Positions 1-64,000 of a stretch of DNA of 64,000 nt are shown here, one piece after another. Source of the DNA: Oryzisolibacter sp. LB2S (GTDB taxonomy: Bacteria; Pseudomonadota; Gammaproteobacteria; Burkholderiales; Burkholderiaceae_C); NCBI RefSeq assembly GCF_040732315.1, contig NZ_CP160388.1:1090501-1154500 (forward strand). Reading direction: 5' to 3'. The notes beneath the pieces are model-generated. The model made no database searches, was not told the origin of the DNA, and saw only the letters and a list, made by a program, of their open reading frames with translations. A program made the translations under genes and the position numbers. Numbering within the stretch: position 1 is the first letter of the stretch; the number at the start of each line of letters is the position of its first letter.

Positions 1-825
<825 letters not shown>

Positions 826-57406: not shown

Positions 57407-58039
57407 ATGAAACGATCGATTACTGCAATATTGATAGCTGTCAGCGCCCAGTGGGTAAGCGCTGACGGCCTGAAAAGCCTTGAAAACTTCATGAGATCGG
57501 CCCACAGTGGCCGGGCCGATTTCACCCAGACCGTGACGGCCCCCCCGAAGGACGGTCAGGCGCAGCGCCCCAAGGTGTCGAGCGGCAGCTTCGAGTTCCA
57601 GCGCCCCGGGCGCTTCAAGTTCGTCTACACCAAGCCGTTTGCGCAGACCATCGTCGCCGATGGCAAGACCCTGTGGCTTTATGACGTGGACCTGAACCAG
57701 GTGACCGAGCGCGCCCAGGCCCAGGCGCTGGGCAGCACGCCCGCGGCGCTGCTGGCGTCGGCCCCCGACCTGGCGGCGCTGCGCGCCGACTACCAGCTCG
57801 AATCCGCCCCCGATCAGGATGGCCTGCAGTGGGTGCTGGCGACACCAAAGGCCCAGGGCGGCCAGCTCAAGAGCGTGCGCGTGGGCCTGGAGGGCGATCG
57901 GCTGGCCGCGCTCGACATTCTGGACAGCTTTGGCCAGCGTTCGCTCATCCGCTTCACGGGCATGCAGCTCAACCCGCAGCTGCCCGCGGGCAGCTTTCAG
58001 TTCAAGCCGCCCGCGGGGGCGGATGTGCTCAGGCAGTAG
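57407..58039 (+). CDS. lolA: Outer-membrane lipoprotein carrier protein LolA
   Basis: Periplasmic chaperone (210 aa) that carries lipoproteins from LolCDE to LolB. The signal peptide MKRSITAILIAVSAQWVSAD is followed by ADFTQTVTAPP, SSGSFEFQRPGRFKFVYTKP, DGKTLWLYDVDLNQVTERA and the C-terminal beta sheet ending PAGADVLRQ, all typical. The signal-peptide codons are a copy of the dispersed repeat (57421-57476), one of the clearest cases of repeat-derived coding sequence. Cotranscribed with ftsK, as in many betaproteobacteria. Its last 11 bp overlap the convergent cytochrome b fusion gene. Confidence 0.95.
   Translation: MKRSITAILIAVSAQWVSADGLKSLENFMRSAHSGRADFTQTVTAPPKDGQAQRPKVSSGSFEFQRPGRFKFVYTKPFAQTIVADGKTLWLYDVDLNQVTERAQAQALGSTPAALLASAPDLAALRADYQLESAPDQDGLQWVLATPKAQGGQLKSVRVGLEGDRLAALDILDSFGQRSLIRFTGMQLNPQLPAGSFQFKPPAGADVLRQ
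57421..57476 (+). repeat. Interspersed GATAGCTG repeat, copy encoding the LolA signal peptide
   Basis: Reads TACTGCAATATTGATAGCTG, hairpin arms GTCAGCGC / GCGCTGAC, then GGCCTGAAAA. Nearly full-length; the first 20 bases equal those of the copy after prkA (45058). Confidence 0.9.
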
Positions 58040-59978
58040 CGGCGCCGCTGCCCGCCGAGGGCGCCGCCTGGGCCGCGGGTGCGGCCATGACGAAGGCGTC
58101 GGAGAAGCAGAAGCTCTCGTCCAGGCCATGGGCGATGAAGGCGGGCACGGCGGTCTCCACCATGCGCACCGACCCGCAGAGGTAGACCTCGTTGCCGCTC
58201 AGGCTGGGGAAGTCGGCCAGCATGGCCTCGTGCACCAGGCCCGTGCGGCCGCTCCAGCCATCCTCGGGCAGAGGCTCGGACACCACGGGCACCACGGTGA
58301 AGTTGGGGTGCTCGCTCTGCCATGCCTCGCACTGCGCCAGCATGTACAGGTCCTGCGGGCGGCGCACGCCCCAGTACAGCCGCATGGGCCGTTGCACGCC
58401 GCGCGCGAACGCGTCCTCGACGATGCTCTTGATGGGCGCAAAGCCCGTCGCGCCGGCGATGAACAGAATCGGGTGCGGGCTCTCGCGCAGCGTGAACTGG
58501 CCGAGCGGCCCCTCGAAGCGCACATGCTCGCCGGGCTTCATCTGCTCGAACACATGGGTGGTCCAGCGCCCACCGGGCACCAGGCGCACATGCAGCTCGA
58601 TCAGGTTGCTCGCGCCCGGCCGGTTGGCGAAGGAGAACGCGCGGCGCTGTCCGTCCTCGAGCAGGATGTTGATGTACTGGCCCGCCGCGTACTGCAGCAC
58701 CTGGCCCGCGGGCAACTGCAGCTCCACACGCATCACGTCGGGGCTCAGGCGTTCGAGCTGCGCCACCGTGGCGTGAAAGACCTCGCGCGTCTGCGCCGCG
58801 GCCCCGGTGAATCCGGCGACGTCGATGGCCATGTCCTCCTGCGGCACGGCGCAGCACATCAGGGCCTTGCCACGCTCCCTGTCGGCATCGGACAGGGCCG
58901 TCTTCTGGTAGGGGCGATGCCGGTACTGGCCCTGCTCGATGGAGCAGACGCACAGGCCACAGGCGCCATTGCGGCACTCGTAGGCCAGGGCCAGGTTCTG
59001 GCGCAGGCCGGCGTCGAGAATGGTCTCGTCCTGGCGCACGGTGATGGTGCTCAGCGCCCCCTGTTCGCCGTGGATCTGCACGCGATGCACGCGCTTTTCG
59101 CCGCGCCGGAACTGTGGCGGCCACCAGGGCAGCAGGGCGATCACCACGGTCACGCCGATCACCAGCGCCCACACGCGGCCCAGCGGCCATTCGGTGAGCA
59201 GCGGAAAGATGGCCATGTAGAACCAGTCCAGCTCGATCTGCGTGGCGGCGCGGGCCAGGTCGGTCTGCCCGCCCTGGCTGTGCACCGGCGCCACCAGCGA
59301 CAGCACGACCAAGGTGGCCAGCAGCCCCCAGACGATGGGGCCGGGTGGCGCGGTGCGAGCCTTGGGCACGCGCTGCACATGGATCCACATCAGCATCAGC
59401 AGCACCAGCGGCACCCCCAGATGCATGAAGGACAACAGCGTGAAGAAGCGCGCGCCCACATGGTCGGAGTACAGGAAGTTGCGCATCAGGCTGCCGTTGA
59501 AGATGGGCAACCAGTCGAGCCATTCGAAGCTGGTCACCGTGATGAACTGCGCCAGCTGATCCCAGGGCAGCATGTAGCCGTTGATGCCTGCGGCGTAGAC
59601 CATCCAGATCAGCATCACGCCGGTGATCCACGAGAACCAGCGAAAGCCGTGGAACAGGTTGAAGGCAAAGTAGCGCAGCATGTGCAGCACCATGGTCAGC
59701 ACCATGGCGTCCGATGCGTAGCGGTGCACGCTGCGCATGATGCCGCCGAGCCACCATTGCCGGGTGGTGAGCGTGACCACCGAGGCATAGGCCTCGTCCA
59801 CCCCGGTCTCGAAGAACACATACAGGTACAGGCCGCTCGCACCCACGACCCAGAACAGGAAGAAGGTGATGGCGCCGAGGTGATAGAAGGGGTTGATGCG
59901 GTCGCCGAAGGCCGCGTTGAACAGCCCCTCCACACGCAGGAAAAGCCACTGCAACAGGTCCTGTAGCTTCTTGATCAT
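58029..59978 (-). CDS. Cytochrome b fused to [2Fe-2S] ferredoxin and FAD/NAD(P)H reductase
   Basis: Membrane redox protein of 649 aa with an unusual fusion. Residues about 1-285: N-terminal half of a bc1/b6-type cytochrome b with two heme pairs, H85/H186 and H99/H200 (HRY and LHM in helix B, MHLG and IHVQR in helix D, both spaced 14). Residues about 297-385: plant-type [2Fe-2S] ferredoxin, ligands C335, C340, C343 and C375. Residues about 400-625: reductase with FAD motif RAFSFANRP and nucleotide site IAGATGFAPIKSI, ending VYLCGSVRMVE. It could pass electrons between NAD(P)H, the [2Fe-2S] centre and membrane hemes. Downstream gene of the leftward oxidase-like operon, 12 bp from the subunit I gene; convergent overlap with lolA. 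Confidence 0.88.
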   Translation of the reverse strand: MIKKLQDLLQWLFLRVEGLFNAAFGDRINPFYHLGAITFFLFWVVGASGLYLYVFFETGVDEAYASVVTLTTRQWWLGGIMRSVHRYASDAMVLTMVLHMLRYFAFNLFHGFRWFSWITGVMLIWMVYAAGINGYMLPWDQLAQFITVTSFEWLDWLPIFNGSLMRNFLYSDHVGARFFTLLSFMHLGVPLVLLMLMWIHVQRVPKARTAPPGPIVWGLLATLVVLSLVAPVHSQGGQTDLARAATQIELDWFYMAIFPLLTEWPLGRVWALVIGVTVVIALLPWWPPQFRRGEKRVHRVQIHGEQGALSTITVRQDETILDAGLRQNLALAYECRNGACGLCVCSIEQGQYRHRPYQKTALSDADRERGKALMCCAVPQEDMAIDVAGFTGAAAQTREVFHATVAQLERLSPDVMRVELQLPAGQVLQYAAGQYINILLEDGQRRAFSFANRPGASNLIELHVRLVPGGRWTTHVFEQMKPGEHVRFEGPLGQFTLRESPHPILFIAGATGFAPIKSIVEDAFARGVQRPMRLYWGVRRPQDLYMLAQCEAWQSEHPNFTVVPVVSEPLPEDGWSGRTGLVHEAMLADFPSLSGNEVYLCGSVRMVETAVPAFIAHGLDESFCFSDAFVMAAPAAQAAPSAGSGAATA

Positions 59979-59990
59979 GGCTTGCCTCCC

Positions 59991-61454
59991 TCAGGTGGAC
60001 CTGGTGCCGGACGGGCGCATGGCGCGCAGCACAACGACGATGAACAGCAGCCCACCAATGATGGCGATGAGACCGCCCAGGCCCATCAGCCCCATGCCCG
60101 CGACCTCGGCCGTGCTGCGCAGCACCTGGTCGCTGCCGGCCACCTTGCGCTGCACGCCGTAGCCGCCGGACCAGACCAGGCCGATGATGTGCATGAGCTG
60201 GCCCAGGCCATAGGCCCATGGCTGCCATGCGGCCAGGCGATCCTGGGGCGCCTGGTAACCGAGCGCCGGCAGGATGCGGTAGACCACGCCCATGAGCGCC
60301 AGCGTCACGCCGACGATGGCGCCGTGGTAATGCGCCGGAATGCGCACGTTGCTGCCGTGGATGAAGATGCCTATCAGGCCGCCCGCGCCAAACAGCAGCA
60401 CCGAGGACAGCAGCGCCGCGCGCAGCGGGCGCAGGCGCGCGTCGTCAGGGCGCTGCGCCAGCACGCCGAGCACGGCGGCCAGGGCCACGGGCACGATGGC
60501 CGGGCCGCCGCCCAGGCGCATGGCCCAGGTCAGCAGGTCGCGGTGCTCGACCGATGTCACCTCGTGCGCCAGATAGGCCACGGGCGTGACGAAGACGCCC
60601 GCCAGCCCCACCAGCAGCAGCAGCAGGGTGACGCGCGGGCTGAGCAATATGCGCGCCCCGCAGGCGCTGGCCAGCCACAGCCAGGCCACCAGCATGAGCA
60701 GTGTCCAGGTGAACTGCAGCGCGTGGCCTCCACCCCAGAACAGCACCTCGTAATAGGCCTTGCCGTGCAGGCTCGTGGGCAGCACGGCCCAGGACCAGGC
60801 AAAGCACAGCAGGGCCACGGCGCCTGCCACGGCCGCGGCCGTCAGACCGAAGCTCAGCACCCCGGGCCCGCGCAGCGGCAGGCCCAGGACGGGGGCGGCC
60901 CTGAGGCTGCGCAGCACCAGCAGCCCTGCGCCCAGGCCGAACACCGAGAGGCCCGTGAGAAACAGGCCCGATTCGAGCACTGGGACGTAGTTGGCCATGA
61001 TGGGCTCGCCCGGGTCTGCGAACGGCGCCAGCGCCATGGCCAGCGTGCCGCCTCCCGTGAGCCACCATGCAAGCCAGCCCAGACCGGTGGCGCGGGCGCT
61101 GCCATGCAGGCTCCACAGCAGCCCGGCCATGGCGACGAACCACACCAGCACCGACAGATCCACATGCAGCACCAGGGCGATGTGAAAGAAGTTGGCCGTG
61201 GGCAGCCACTGATTGACATAGGGCGTGCGAGAGGCGACGAGCAGCACCGAGAACAGGCCCGAGGCGATCAGGGCCGCCAGCCCGAGCCAGAGCCAACCGC
61301 GTGCCAGCGCCAGGCGGGCGTCGCCCGGCAGGCTGAGCTGGTAGCTCGTGGCCGCGCCGGTTACGGGACTGGTGGAGGGGCTGGTGGCGGGGCCATCACC
61401 AGTCGCCGCATGCTCGGGAGAGCCATTGGGAAACAGGGGAATGTGGATGCTCAT
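59991..61454 (-). CDS. Heme-copper oxidase subunit I-like protein with altered CuB site
   Basis: Polytopic membrane protein of 487 aa with about 12 hydrophobic helices and the heme-copper oxidase/NO reductase fold. Low-spin heme ligands: H97 (or H91) in FHIALVLHVDL and H377; high-spin heme ligand H375 in RIPAHYHGAIVG. CuB-side H244 is in FWGGGHALQFTW, but the His-His pair of helix VII is not intact: the region reads AYLAHEVTSVEHRDLL, so one His appears replaced by Glu. The crosslink Tyr of A-type oxidases (H+4) is Phe. It could be an oxidase or NO reductase of an uncommon branch. ATGA overlap with the preceding small gene; no subunit II is in the window, but SCO upstream hints one exists. Confidence 0.8.
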   Translation of the reverse strand: MSIHIPLFPNGSPEHAATGDGPATSPSTSPVTGAATSYQLSLPGDARLALARGWLWLGLAALIASGLFSVLLVASRTPYVNQWLPTANFFHIALVLHVDLSVLVWFVAMAGLLWSLHGSARATGLGWLAWWLTGGGTLAMALAPFADPGEPIMANYVPVLESGLFLTGLSVFGLGAGLLVLRSLRAAPVLGLPLRGPGVLSFGLTAAAVAGAVALLCFAWSWAVLPTSLHGKAYYEVLFWGGGHALQFTWTLLMLVAWLWLASACGARILLSPRVTLLLLLVGLAGVFVTPVAYLAHEVTSVEHRDLLTWAMRLGGGPAIVPVALAAVLGVLAQRPDDARLRPLRAALLSSVLLFGAGGLIGIFIHGSNVRIPAHYHGAIVGVTLALMGVVYRILPALGYQAPQDRLAAWQPWAYGLGQLMHIIGLVWSGGYGVQRKVAGSDQVLRSTAEVAGMGLMGLGGLIAIIGGLLFIVVVLRAMRPSGTRST

Positions 61455-61954
61455 TGCAGAACAATGCCTCCCTTGTCGGGGCTGTAGTCGATCACCAGCA
61501 CCTGGGCCGGCTGCAGCGTGATGGTTTCCTTGAGCTCAGATGTGTAGCCCTCGGCCTTCTGGTCGTCCTTGAAGCGCACCGCGATCTGATGCTGCCCCGC
61601 CGGCACGTTCATGCGCTGGTACAAGGTGGATGCACCGTCGCGCGACAGGCCCGACGGCGGGGAGGTGCGTGCGAGCACGGTCTTGCCGTCGATGTCCACC
61701 TCGATGGAGACGGGCGAGCGCTCGCGCTCGCATTTCTCTGCCTTGCGCATGTTGGGCGGCAGCTTGGCCTGCTCCTCGGGCGTGTACGGGCGGCAGGGCG
61801 CCAGGCGCGCGCCGTGGTGGGCAAAGCTGACCTTGATCTGCGCCATGCCTTCGGGAACCGGGTGGTACACGGGCCAGCGCGAGAACACGCCCAGCGCCAC
61901 GGCAAAGCCGCCGTACAGAACTGCCTGGCCTAGCCAGTTGAGGGCTGGGTTCAT
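61451..61954 (-). CDS. Small membrane-anchored protein of unknown function in oxidase-like operon
   Basis: Unrecognised protein of 167 aa. One N-terminal hydrophobic helix (about residues 9-25, LGQAVLYGGFAVALGVFS) is followed by a soluble domain, probably periplasmic, rich in beta-strands (VSIEVDIDGKTVL, HQIAVRFKDDQKAE). Two Cys are present (APCRPYTPEE and AEKCERE) about 21 residues apart. No known subunit II CuA motif or heme-c CxxCH. It overlaps both neighbours by 4 bp (ATGA), so it is translated as part of the same unit and may be an accessory subunit of the oxidase-like protein. Confidence 0.75.
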   Translation of the reverse strand: MNPALNWLGQAVLYGGFAVALGVFSRWPVYHPVPEGMAQIKVSFAHHGARLAPCRPYTPEEQAKLPPNMRKAEKCERERSPVSIEVDIDGKTVLARTSPPSGLSRDGASTLYQRMNVPAGQHQIAVRFKDDQKAEGYTSELKETITLQPAQVLVIDYSPDKGGIVLQ

Positions 61955-63549
61955 GGGGGGCTCTCCTCGTAAGCAGGGTGCGCGCCGGCGGGGCAGCTCT
62001 GGCGCAGCGCCTGCACTGCGGCCGCCAGCCGGCGCTCATCGCCGGCGTCGGTCCAGGCCACCTGCCAGCGGCCCTGCGGGACCGAGCGGCGCAGGTGGGG
62101 CTCGCGCGCGCCCGTCAGGCGCTCGGCCGTCCAGCGCTGGCCCAGGCGAAACTCGCATCCGCCCTCGCGGCAGCCGTGGATGAGCACGCCATCGGCGCCA
62201 TGGCGCAAGGCGTACTCGATGAACGCAGGCGGCAGCGCCCCGGCGCAGGCGAGCGGCAGGTGCAGTACGTCGCTCGCCTGCACCGCCATGCGCGCGCCCT
62301 GGGCACAGCCGAAGACCACCAGGCGCTGCGGCCCCGGCATGGCCTGCAAACCCTGCACGAGCCGCGTGCGCAGCGCGTGCACGGGCCACTGCGGCATGTC
62401 AATGCCCGTGACCAGTTGCTCGGTGCTGCGAAATGGCGTGGACGAAGGGCAGGCACCCGCGCAGATGCCGCAGCTGGCGCACAGGTCGGCGTTCACCTCG
62501 GCCAGGCGCATGCCGGGCTTGCCGTTGGTGTGCGCCACCATGGTGATGGCGGCGTAGGGACAGTCGTCAAAGCAGCGCGCGCAGCCGCTGCAATGCTGTG
62601 GATAGACCAAAGCCACGGGCTCCCGGGCCGGGGCCGGCCACAGCGGCGGCGCGACCAGCAGGACAAAGGCCAGCAGCACCAGGCCCCAGGCGAAGGCCGG
62701 CGAGGTCGCGTCCATGACCGGGTGGATGAAGAGCAGCCACCAGTCGAGCGCCAGCGCCGTGGGCTGGCTGCGCAGGTCCGCAGGCCCCTGACTGAGCACG
62801 GGAAGGGCCCAGGACAGCGCCAGCAGCATGCACAGGACGGCCCACGCCAGCGGGCGCGGTGGAAACACCTTGGCCAGATTGATGCGCTGTATGTGGAACC
62901 ACAGTCCGAACACCATGAGCAGCGGCATGCCGATGTGGATGAAGATGAACAGCGTGAAGAGCCGGTCGCTCAGGCTCACGTCGCCCAGAAAATTGCGTGC
63001 CAGGGGGGCGCCCAGAAAGGGCAGGGCATCAAGCCACTCGGCCGTGGCCACGACCGAGTACTGGCCCAGGCGATCCCAGTTGAGCCAGAAGCCGCCTATC
63101 GCGCTCACGAAGGCCAGCCCGACCAGGGGCACGCCCGTCCACCAGATGGCCCGGCGCCAATGTCGGTAGCGCCCGAGCAGCCATTCGCGCAGGATGTGCA
63201 CGGCCATGACGAGCACGAAGGCATCCGCGCCATAGCGGTGCAGCCCGCGCAGCATGGTGCCCAGCATCCAGGGCACATCGGCCAGCGAGTCGATGGACCC
63301 ATAGGCCCCAGCGGCCGAGGTGTCGAGCACGATGTACAGCACGCTGCCGCTGGCCACCAGCAGCCACAGCAGCATGAAGCCGAGCGCGCCCAGGTGCTTG
63401 AGCGGGTTGGCGCGCGCGCCCAGGGCGGTGTCCAGCCCATGCTCGAGCCGGCGATAGGCGCGGGCGAGCCGGGGCAGGGGCAGGGGCGCTGGGGCTGGCT
63501 CCGGCGGCGCGAGACCGCCCAGGGGCAGGGTGGATGCGGGCGACGGCAT
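61951..63549 (-). CDS. Cytochrome b fused to two [4Fe-4S] sites and an MvhD-like domain
   Basis: Membrane protein of 532 aa with three parts. After a Pro-rich N-terminus (about 1-30) comes a cytochrome b N-terminal-type domain with heme pairs H104/H205 and H118/H219 (LHRYGADA, VHILRE; FIHIGMP, WFHIQRI). Residues about 315-375 hold two ferredoxin-like [4Fe-4S] motifs (C320/323/326/330, then C357/360/363/367). The C-terminal ~130 residues contain VVFGCAQGAR, LACAGALPP and IHGCREGGC, matching MvhD/FrhD-type hydrogenase/heterodisulfide electron-transfer subunits (C415, C435, C460, C465). It may link low-potential electron carriers to membrane hemes. No hydrogenase is nearby. ATGA overlap with the next gene. 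Confidence 0.85.
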   Translation of the reverse strand: MPSPASTLPLGGLAPPEPAPAPLPLPRLARAYRRLEHGLDTALGARANPLKHLGALGFMLLWLLVASGSVLYIVLDTSAAGAYGSIDSLADVPWMLGTMLRGLHRYGADAFVLVMAVHILREWLLGRYRHWRRAIWWTGVPLVGLAFVSAIGGFWLNWDRLGQYSVVATAEWLDALPFLGAPLARNFLGDVSLSDRLFTLFIFIHIGMPLLMVFGLWFHIQRINLAKVFPPRPLAWAVLCMLLALSWALPVLSQGPADLRSQPTALALDWWLLFIHPVMDATSPAFAWGLVLLAFVLLVAPPLWPAPAREPVALVYPQHCSGCARCFDDCPYAAITMVAHTNGKPGMRLAEVNADLCASCGICAGACPSSTPFRSTEQLVTGIDMPQWPVHALRTRLVQGLQAMPGPQRLVVFGCAQGARMAVQASDVLHLPLACAGALPPAFIEYALRHGADGVLIHGCREGGCEFRLGQRWTAERLTGAREPHLRRSVPQGRWQVAWTDAGDERRLAAAVQALRQSCPAGAHPAYEESPP

Positions 63550-63568
63550 GGCTCTGGTGCGTTGCCTC

Positions 63569-64000
63569 TCAGGCGTTGCGCACTCCCTGGTTGCGAGCCA
63601 ATTTCCGGCTGGAGCGCCATTCGTTGATGAAGAACACCAGCATCACGATGAAGAACGTGATGCCGCCGGCAATCTGCAGGGGCAGCGTGTAGTCCACCTT
63701 GTAGGCACCGGTCTTTGGGTCGTACACGGTGCAGAGGATACGCACCCTGTCCAGGAGCTGATCCATGAGTGTGTTGTTTTCGACGGGTTGGCCCGCGAGC
63801 AGCATCTTCAGCGGCTCGCCGAGCTCGGCGGGCACCAGGCCCTCGCCGTAGACCTGGCGCACGATGCGCCCGCGCGCGTCGAGTATCGATACCTGCAGCA
63901 CATGATCGAACCCCGCCGGGGAGGGCTGGAACACGAAGCCGAAATCCCGCGCCAGTGCCGGCACGATGGCCGCCGGCGGGCTGAGGAATTCCCAGTTGGG
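63569..64000 (-). CDS. SCO family copper chaperone, C-terminal part (5' end outside window)
   Basis: C-terminal 143 residues of a SCO1/SenC-like thioredoxin-fold protein, open to the right edge. Visible are FGFVFQPSPAGFDHVLQVSI with the conserved copper-ligand His, and LDARGRIVRQVYGEGL; the CxxxC motif should lie outside. Unusually for SCO proteins, the end carries a transmembrane helix (about LQIAGGITFFIVMLVFFI) followed by a basic cytoplasmic tail, so it is C-terminally anchored. SCO proteins insert copper into the CuA site of cytochrome oxidase subunit II; that subunit is not in the window. It is 19 bp upstream of the cytochrome b/Fe-S/MvhD gene. Confidence 0.85.
   Translation of the reverse strand, partial: PNWEFLSPPAAIVPALARDFGFVFQPSPAGFDHVLQVSILDARGRIVRQVYGEGLVPAELGEPLKMLLAGQPVENNTLMDQLLDRVRILCTVYDPKTGAYKVDYTLPLQIAGGITFFIVMLVFFINEWRSSRKLARNQGVRNA

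Follow-up and report, generated by a model that had tools for sequence, protein, structure and literature searches.

What does the operon at the right edge of a 64,000-nucleotide stretch of Oryzisolibacter sp. LB2S (contig NZ_CP160388.1, positions 1,090,501 to 1,154,500; hereafter the window) do, where five minus-strand genes follow one another closely? A first-pass annotation of these letters proposed a possibly undescribed membrane electron-transfer operon that included a partial gene for the copper-assembly protein SCO. We reproduced the positions, strand and spacings of its five leftward genes (12 bp, -4, -4 and 19 bp, from left to right), and Pfam agrees with the domain make-up it gave for the SCO protein, the two cytochrome b fusions and the small anchored protein, the last having no family at E <= 0.001. 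SCO is not the first gene of the operon, however, which is truncated by the window edge: another four leftward genes precede it, with gaps of 12-15 bp, and reach 67786 when window-scale coordinates are extended past 64000 along the single 3.84-Mb contig of this genome. The five window genes make up the 3' portion of a widely conserved bacterial operon of nine genes, and we number its genes in transcription order, from g1 (a 51-residue peptide) to g9 (the cytochrome b-FNR fusion; Table 1). With a probability of about 0.6, we read g1-g9 as the operon of an eNOR-type nitric oxide (NO) reductase (NOR), together with its assembly factors and a transmembrane electron module, used in NirS denitrification or at low oxygen.

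The reading begins with g3, a B-family heme-copper enzyme that, among solved structures, comes nearest to ba3 oxidases (7deg, E 1.6e-46; 1ehk). Residue conservation was counted over rows that passed a bit-score and coverage floor, with at most one row per locus, identical sequences taken once and one extra reference copy from the window. Oxidases carry a cross-linked Tyr at a site where g3 has Gln (Q233, H229+4) in 99/99 aligned rows, within the pattern S-S/T/A-Q-Q that follows the His of transmembrane helix 6 (TM6) in these 99 rows and was also aligned with 7deg and 4gp8. The six His of heme-copper oxidases (HCO) are retained, H67 in 98/99 rows (one gap) and H229, H278, H279, H383 and H385 in all 99, and the CuA ligands of g2 (H126, C161, E163, C165, H169, M172) are present in 98/98. 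PMC8756737 assigns Gln at this site of subunit I to eNOR, Asn to sNOR and Tyr to O2 reductases, and its eNOR example has a cupredoxin subunit II directly upstream of subunit I; the published eNOR features, namely the Gln, the six HCO His and an adjacent upstream CuA subunit II, are all found in g3 and g2. The subunit II that the first-pass annotation had hoped for among the right-hand neighbours is this g2, whereas the cytochrome c sought with it is missing, as no CxxCH motif occurs in g1-g9 of this genome. The subunit I and II features suggest that the core of the operon is of the eNOR type, with NO the likely substrate given the Gln and the NirS association described below, so that of the oxygen or NO site first proposed the evidence points to NO. 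The gene set is not wholly undescribed, since its core carries the sequence signature that PMC8756737 gives for eNOR; the claim of novelty would hold for the attached membrane electron module and lapses for the core.

The remaining core genes fit an assembly role. CtaB supplies heme O and SCO supplies copper, and g4 and g5 would be the heme and copper assembly factors of the reductase. Full-length g5 matches SCO1-SenC (E 6.7e-15), while its in-window part alone gives no Pfam match; close to its C terminus the protein contains another hydrophobic stretch, ahead of which stands a conserved C-x-x-Y-D motif (C237, Y240 and D241 in 17/17). An initial assignment to sNOR, suggested by the combination of SCO, CuA and subunit I, was rejected on the active-site residue, which is Gln and not Asn. 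The subunit I of L231 (genome G063, one of seven with AMO-family genes) reads H-V-V-I-N, with the Asn expected of sNOR, and is 22% identical to g3. Two further loci, L153 and L154 (G011:C46 and G132:C8), encode a diverged subunit I that resembles the B family, shares 29-30% identity with g3 and reads H-N-M-H-Y at TM6; in it, Y-F-H replaces the H-F-H of other enzymes, so one heme ligand seems replaced.

We next consider how far the operon holds together. Among 200 sampled genomes of the same order, g8 and g3 were initially each matched in 20; with G145 (only a TPR-fused g8 paralogue) and G081 (a Tyr-type oxidase at 27% identity) set aside, the two genes co-occur in the same 19 genomes, our own included, which span 13 family labels. 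A g6- or g9-type cytochrome b fusion is found in all 19 of these genomes (g6 in 17, g9 in 18) and in only one of the 181 others, G153. Distant g9 copies in G118, G039, G126, G030 and G153 align over the reductase half as well. In G153, L237 (contig C304) contains a full cytochrome b-FNR fusion and part of a second cytochrome b gene; this genome has NirS-family and AMO-family matches and no g3 or g8 match.

A second set, the named loci, comprises the best 80 of at least 531 confirmed candidates fetched with the g8 alignment. The conserved gene order that was to be looked for in relatives is there and is not a chance arrangement: all nine genes stand complete, in order and on one strand in 40 of the 80, with median gaps from g1 to g9 of 31, 12.5, 15, 11.5, -2.5, -4, -4 and -4 bp, some extreme gaps looking like wrong start or stop choices by the script. 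A second common order, g1-g5, g9, g7, g6, g8, occurs in 12 named loci and, with an extra g7, in two more, while many of the other loci are truncated at contig ends. Within the order, the genes are found together in relatives belonging to several families, and they also cluster in records labelled Gammaproteobacteria, Lysobacterales and Steroidobacteraceae; carriers include Alicycliphilus, Comamonas, Castellaniella, Simplicispira, Ramlibacter, Herbaspirillum, a Rhodocyclaceae bacterium and several gammaproteobacterial metagenome-assembled genomes (MAGs). This conserved operon supports the proposal that the encoded proteins may act as one unit.

The operon is also associated with nitrite reduction. 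Of the 19 g3 genomes, 18 have a match to the cytochrome d1 family (NirS and relatives, PF02239), against 37 of the 181 others (Fisher p 1.2e-10, uncorrected for kinship). NirK shows a weak opposite trend (0/19 against 31/181, p 0.049), and NosZ shows no association (5/19 against 25/181, p 0.17). A NirS-like protein lies in the available stretch of 14 of the 80 named loci (one only 22% identical), including Curvibacter and an Acidiferrobacteraceae record, in 4 of 22 loci of the order (one the query source, one only 24% identical) and in 8 of 20 phylum-level loci, where four fall below 26% identity and are perhaps NirN/NirF-like. In our own genome, nirS lies about 0.37 Mb from the operon.

Upstream of g1, the box TTGAY-N4-RTCAA is found exactly in 38 of 98 regions and with at most one mismatch in 69, compared with 1.3% and 5.4%, respectively, of 1920 windows drawn at random from these loci. 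The 98 regions include at least three duplicates (L035/L089, L036/L113 and L037/L100), and the search does not separate FNR, ANR and DNR sites. Our own genome has a one-mismatch box, TTGAGGTAAATCAA, at -239 from g1. NsrR-like boxes were found in 7/98 upstream regions (shuffle mean 3.1), RegA-like boxes in 11/98 (shuffle mean 9.3) and a copper-type palindrome in 0/98.

These results bear on the possibility that g1-g3 instead serve microoxic growth by reducing oxygen with high affinity, and reduce NO only secondarily. The ba3 oxidases are the nearest solved relatives of g3, a heme O synthase and an SCO protein are encoded in the operon, FNR-type boxes would also fit oxygen limitation, and the related question for sNOR is described as open in Nitrosomonas (PMC6967387). 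Nevertheless, the invariant Gln in place of the cross-linked Tyr and the strong NirS association argue for an NO reductase, and the genome already encodes aa3, bo3, cbb3 and cbb3-like enzymes, besides a qNOR (types assigned by eye). We therefore regard an oxygen reductase as very doubtful.

The part of the operon that appears new is the membrane module, in which g6 and g9 are paralogous (32% identity over 464 residues). By Pfam, g9 combines Cytochrome_B, Fer2, FAD_binding_6 and NAD_binding_1, and g6 combines Cytochrome_B, Fer4_7 and FlpD/MvhD. Both contain the four axial His that characterize the two-heme cytochromes b of bc1/b6f: positions 85/99/186/200 in g9, which together with the [2Fe-2S] Cys 335/340/343/375 are kept in 83-84 of 84 rows, and positions 104/118/205/219 in g6, which together with eight [4Fe-4S] Cys and four MvhD Cys are kept in 97/97 (an early g6 alignment had 16 of 17 rows, without L044). 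Helices A-F of both proteins align with the genome's own bc1 cytochrome b; in this alignment its Qo motif, PVWY, is matched by a D-W pair that lies after helix E and before helix F. The D is present in 84/84 rows of g9 and the W in 82/84, both are present in 97/97 rows of g6 (in total, D 181/181 and W 179/181), while the outer positions of PxWY differ, the first holding another residue and the last being variable. A PF00032 search of the genome matched the bc1 cytochrome b and neither g6 nor g9, whose C-terminal helices do not score with this profile, so the assignment of the Qo position has the alignment with this bc1 protein as its single source.

The fused domains have recognizable relatives. 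The C-terminal domain of g6 matches FlpD (PF02662, 2.7e-13) with the four Cys expected of MvhD/FlpD in 97/97 rows; these Cys are shared with MvhD of the methanogen hydrogenase/heterodisulfide reductase, but in g6 the domain continues a membrane cytochrome b. For the reductase half of g9, BenC is the top match (8e-66; 222 bits, where the cut-off is 430), and g9 differs from BenC-type reductases by the same kind of fusion. Among the 25 NCBIfam matches listed per protein, none reaches its cut-off. Given the bc1 topology, the C-terminal domains of both proteins would face the cytosol. The axial His and the Qo-position D-W make the cytochromes b plausible connectors of cytosolic NAD(P)H or Fe-S carriers to the other side of the membrane, which supports this part of the first-pass annotation.

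A probable dedicated partner of these fusions is g7. It has two invariant Cys (54 and 75) and 14 invariant columns in 22 rows (22 of 23, the fragment in L038 being left out), and its AF2 model (pLDDT 95.9) consists of one helix and a beta-strand domain, for which a comparison with the PDB gave no match at E <= 0.001. Two g7 genes are present in each of L034, L035, L037 and L038, and in the first three each copy adjoins a preceding cytochrome b fusion; the L038 contig begins inside its first g7 gene. In a g7 tree, label changes numbered one for copies after cytochrome b-FNR and two for copies after cytochrome b-MvhD, with 0/500 shuffles as low, although branch support is modest (75/46). Since g7 subtypes sort by the adjacent cytochrome b fusion, g7 looks like a subunit dedicated to these cytochromes.

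For g8, the annotation's heme-copper-like subunit I is right as to fold and heme sites (Pfam COX1, E 1e-13; 12-helix fold; low-spin and high-spin heme His H97, H375 and H377 in 102/102 rows), but not as a normal HCO subunit I, because it has no conserved TM7 His pair. Specifically, His 97/244/375/377 and R436-K437 are invariant in 102 rows, so that both heme sites are kept, with R-K where relatives have R-R. Across residues 266-332 we found no conserved HH in these 102 rows: HH occurs in 14, the eight inspected cases sit in the loop after TM7, and the best His column of this region, H304, reaches 89/102 and lies in the same loop. Of the three CuB ligands, g8 keeps one, H244. Its AF2 model (pLDDT 83.1) aligns with NOR 4xyd (VIA-align Z 30.0, rmsd 4.0, 401 residues), and phmmer against PDB sequences gave no hit at E <= 0.01. 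An assignment of g8 as a canonical terminal catalytic oxidase was therefore rejected on the missing TM7 His pair, and by its sequence the canonical catalytic subunit is g3, outside the window. The 102-row alignment may include TPR-fused paralogues; an early one had 19 rows, without L031, L032, L051 and L052, and a second had 18, also without L045.

Several other g8-related observations were made in the order. L031:8297-10411, L032:10397-12316 and L051:9259-11343 encode g8-like proteins, about 39-48% identical, with C-terminal TPR-like repeats (by eye) and the heme His set of g8; no other operon gene lies in the available stretch of these loci. A second, diverged SCO-like gene (25-31% identical to g5) stands beside g8 at L035:12628-13212, L038:3699-4238 and L050:9454-10035.

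Could g8 itself be a second catalytic site for NO or another gas, with the non-canonical metal ligands E236, H244 and Q247, rather than an electron carrier? The heme His, H244, Q247 and F248 do not vary, position 236 holds E in 98 of 102 rows and D in the other 4, and the extra SCO-like gene follows or faces g8 in the three loci just named. Against this, nothing conserved stands in for the two CuB His that g8 lacks, H304 being incompletely conserved and in a loop, and we consider such a site improbable.

The module and the core can be partly separated by their distribution. At 61-66% identity, g3 recurs outside this class in a second one of the same phylum, probably the Alphaproteobacteria, and we collected 20 of 32 phylum-level matches with flanks, 17 of them close and some stretches cut. 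All 17 contain g1, g2, g3 and g5, 14 contain g4, nine contain g6 and g7, one contains g8 and none contains g9; g6 is present in 10 of the 20, and L201 (48% identity, not among the 17) has g6-g8. Because g1, g2 and g5 always accompany g3 there, and g4 mostly does, while g6-g9 are patchy, g1-g5 appear as the core and g6-g9 as a recurrent add-on.

Alternatively, g6-g9 could be a respiratory complex of their own that is only co-regulated with the reductase, for example one passing electrons to quinone from NAD(P)H or Fe-S carriers, or one supplying them to NirS or heme d1 synthesis. Indeed, g9 occurs apart from g3: in L235 it lies directly 3' of nirS, in L233 and L234 it comes after a nirN-like gene, and it is present in G153, which has no g3. 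L233 carries, in order, a nirS-like gene, a small cytochrome c, a nirF-like gene, two Lrp-like nirD/L/G/H-type genes, one further frame, a nirN-like gene, cytochrome b-FNR and an NnrS-like gene, and in L234 a comparable run of nir genes is followed by a P460-like gene and then by cytochrome b-FNR (names by eye; nir genes also by PF02239 matches). In addition, 8 of the 17 other-class loci have g3 without g6, g7, g8 or g9 in the available stretch, some being cut by contig ends. Conversely, the unbroken, tightly spaced run of nine genes in half of the named loci, and the presence of at least one cytochrome b fusion in every g3 genome of the order against one in 181 others, favor a functional tie to the reductase, so we hold a separate complex to be possible yet somewhat unlikely. 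As observations on these nir loci, the gene directly after cytochrome b-FNR at L233:12966-14183 encodes an NnrS-like membrane protein (by eye), and L234:6152-6673, between the nir run and cytochrome b-FNR, encodes a P460-like small protein (by eye).

Under the eNOR-type reading, NO from NirS would be reduced to N2O by the CuA-bearing g3 enzyme (g1-g3). The paralogous cytochromes b of g6 and g9 would each hold two b hemes and a Qo-like site facing the periplasm, while the [2Fe-2S]-FAD-NAD(P)H reductase of g9 and the 2x[4Fe-4S]-MvhD domains of g6 would face the cytosol; both proteins would pair with anchored g7 and work with g8. The b hemes would carry electrons across the membrane, linking NAD(P)H or Fe-S carriers in the cytosol to the reductase or the quinone pool, with quinone, g7, g8 or CuA taking over at the outer face. 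Most likely, cytosolic reductant feeds the reductase, making NO removal independent of complex I and bc1. Such forward flow would serve fast NO removal, whereas reverse or bifurcating flow would store energy; the confurcation or reverse transfer raised by the first-pass annotation may also apply.

The latter direction defines a further alternative, in which the Qo-like sites split quinol electrons, one going to the NO reductase (via g7, CuA or g8) and the other through the b hemes to NAD(P)+ at g9 or a ferredoxin-level carrier at g6. The (near-)invariant D-W at the Qo position with reductase domains fused behind helix F, the strong oxidant enzyme in the same operon, and an anchored g7 where bc1 has an anchored Rieske protein would all fit, and bifurcation of this kind has been proposed for anammox Rieske/cytochrome b complexes with NAD(P) oxidoreductases (PMC12954380). 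However, no Rieske family match or Rieske-type Cys/His pattern was found across g1-g9, g7 has no Pfam family above cut-off, and PxWY is only partly retained, so we rate quinol bifurcation as unlikely. The specific version in which both cytochromes b form an NO-driven, Rieske-less machine, with one electron to the eNOR-type reductase and the other to NAD(P)+ and, via MvhD, to a low-potential Fe-S carrier, seems quite unlikely.

Several points weigh against the eNOR-type reading as a whole. NAD(P)H electrons sent to a periplasmic-side site would waste membrane potential, and the genome's own qNOR means that a second NOR needs a reason. The eNOR assignment takes its support from one diagnostic residue and the gene layout. 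A NirS-like protein is lacking in the available stretch of 66 of the 80 named loci, and one g3 genome, G100, has neither a NirS-family nor a NirK match. Finally, in Accumulibacter a "ba3 oxidase" gene (cbaA), which may be g3 or a different gene, was grouped with FNR-repressed genes and changed little (PMC6446978).

Known systems resemble parts of the operon. Described eNOR, reported from Alpha-, Beta- and Gammaproteobacteria, shares the Gln, the six HCO His and the CuA subunit II directly upstream (PMC8756737); the present operon further encodes g7, two cytochrome b fusions and an HCO-like protein that lacks CuB, and it is often near nirS, whereas the Fig. A7 legend of that paper gives no other denitrification genes in the eNOR neighborhood of SURF MAG 42. 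The sNOR of ammonia oxidizers (norSY-senC-orf1) likewise clusters a B-family subunit I, a CuA subunit II and SenC/SCO (PMC4940428, PMC6967387, PMC3772326), but has Asn instead of Gln, and its cluster as listed there is without cytochrome b fusions. The CuA-NOR (bNOR) of Bacillus azotoformans shares a small membrane peptide, a CuA subunit, a ba3-like subunit I and SenC, and in B. bataviensis ctaB adjoins bNOR, as g4 does here; its active site has Asn, and a six-TM protein takes the place of the cytochrome b module (PMC3475470). The anammox complexes share a bc-type cytochrome b wired to a cytoplasmic-side NAD(P) reductase, with quinol bifurcation proposed, but through separate subunits, a Rieske protein and multiheme c, as opposed to direct fusions, no Rieske and no CxxCH here (PMC12954380). 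B-family NOR types are often annotated as cytochrome c oxidases (PMC8756737, PMC11388526). In the literature covered, we found no description of an operon that combines such cytochrome b fusions with an HCO reductase; a 2024 PNAS paper on eNOR, outside that coverage, may describe part of it.

Table 1. Genes and selected features of the nine-gene operon, in window coordinates; positions beyond 64000 lie outside the window on the extended scale
Feature	Coordinates	Strand	Basis
g9: bc1-type cytochrome b + [2Fe-2S] + FAD/NAD(P)H reductase, 649 aa	58029..59978	-	ORF, Pfam
g9 domain limits (residues): cytochrome b 1 to ~295; plant-type [2Fe-2S] 309-380; FAD/NAD(P)H reductase 402-630			
g9 D251-W252, Qo-motif (PxWY) position	59223..59228	-	alignment to own bc1 cytochrome b
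g8: heme-copper-oxidase-fold subunit I-like, 487 aa, 12 main helices	59991..61454	-	Pfam COX1, model
g7: N-terminal TM helix + beta-strand domain, 167 aa	61451..61954	-	ORF, alignment, model
g6: bc1-type cytochrome b + 2x[4Fe-4S] + MvhD/FlpD, 532 aa	61951..63549	-	ORF, Pfam
g6 domain limits (residues): cytochrome b 1 to ~303; 2x[4Fe-4S] 314-370; MvhD/FlpD 415-515			
g6 D269-W270, Qo-motif position	62740..62745	-	alignment to own bc1 cytochrome b
g5: SCO/SenC copper-assembly protein, 290 aa	63569..64441 (63569..64000 in window)	-	profile
g4: CtaB/CyoE heme O synthase	64457-65356	-	TIGR01473 above cut-off
g3: complete heme-copper (HCO) subunit I, 564 aa	65371-67065	-	
g2: CuA subunit II, 179 aa	67079-67618	-	13 bp upstream of g3
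g1: 51-aa one-helix TM peptide	67631-67786	-	

At the downstream end of the operon, a gene at 57407-58039, which from its sequence we take to be LolA-like, converges on g9, the two 3' ends overlapping by 11 bp.

NO reductases decide how much N2O denitrifiers make, and the operon offers a clear, testable gene set for the wiring of an eNOR-type enzyme. It also brings together three kinds of protein for which we found no described role, namely Rieske-less cytochrome b fusions with D-W, the g7 family and a heme-copper fold without TM7 CuB ligands. If the cytochrome b module only delivers NAD(P)H electrons, the operon would encode a dedicated NO-removal chain. If it bifurcates, it would constitute an energy-conserving branch of denitrification, of which we met no description in the literature covered, and denitrifiers would harvest the driving force of NO reduction as reducing power.

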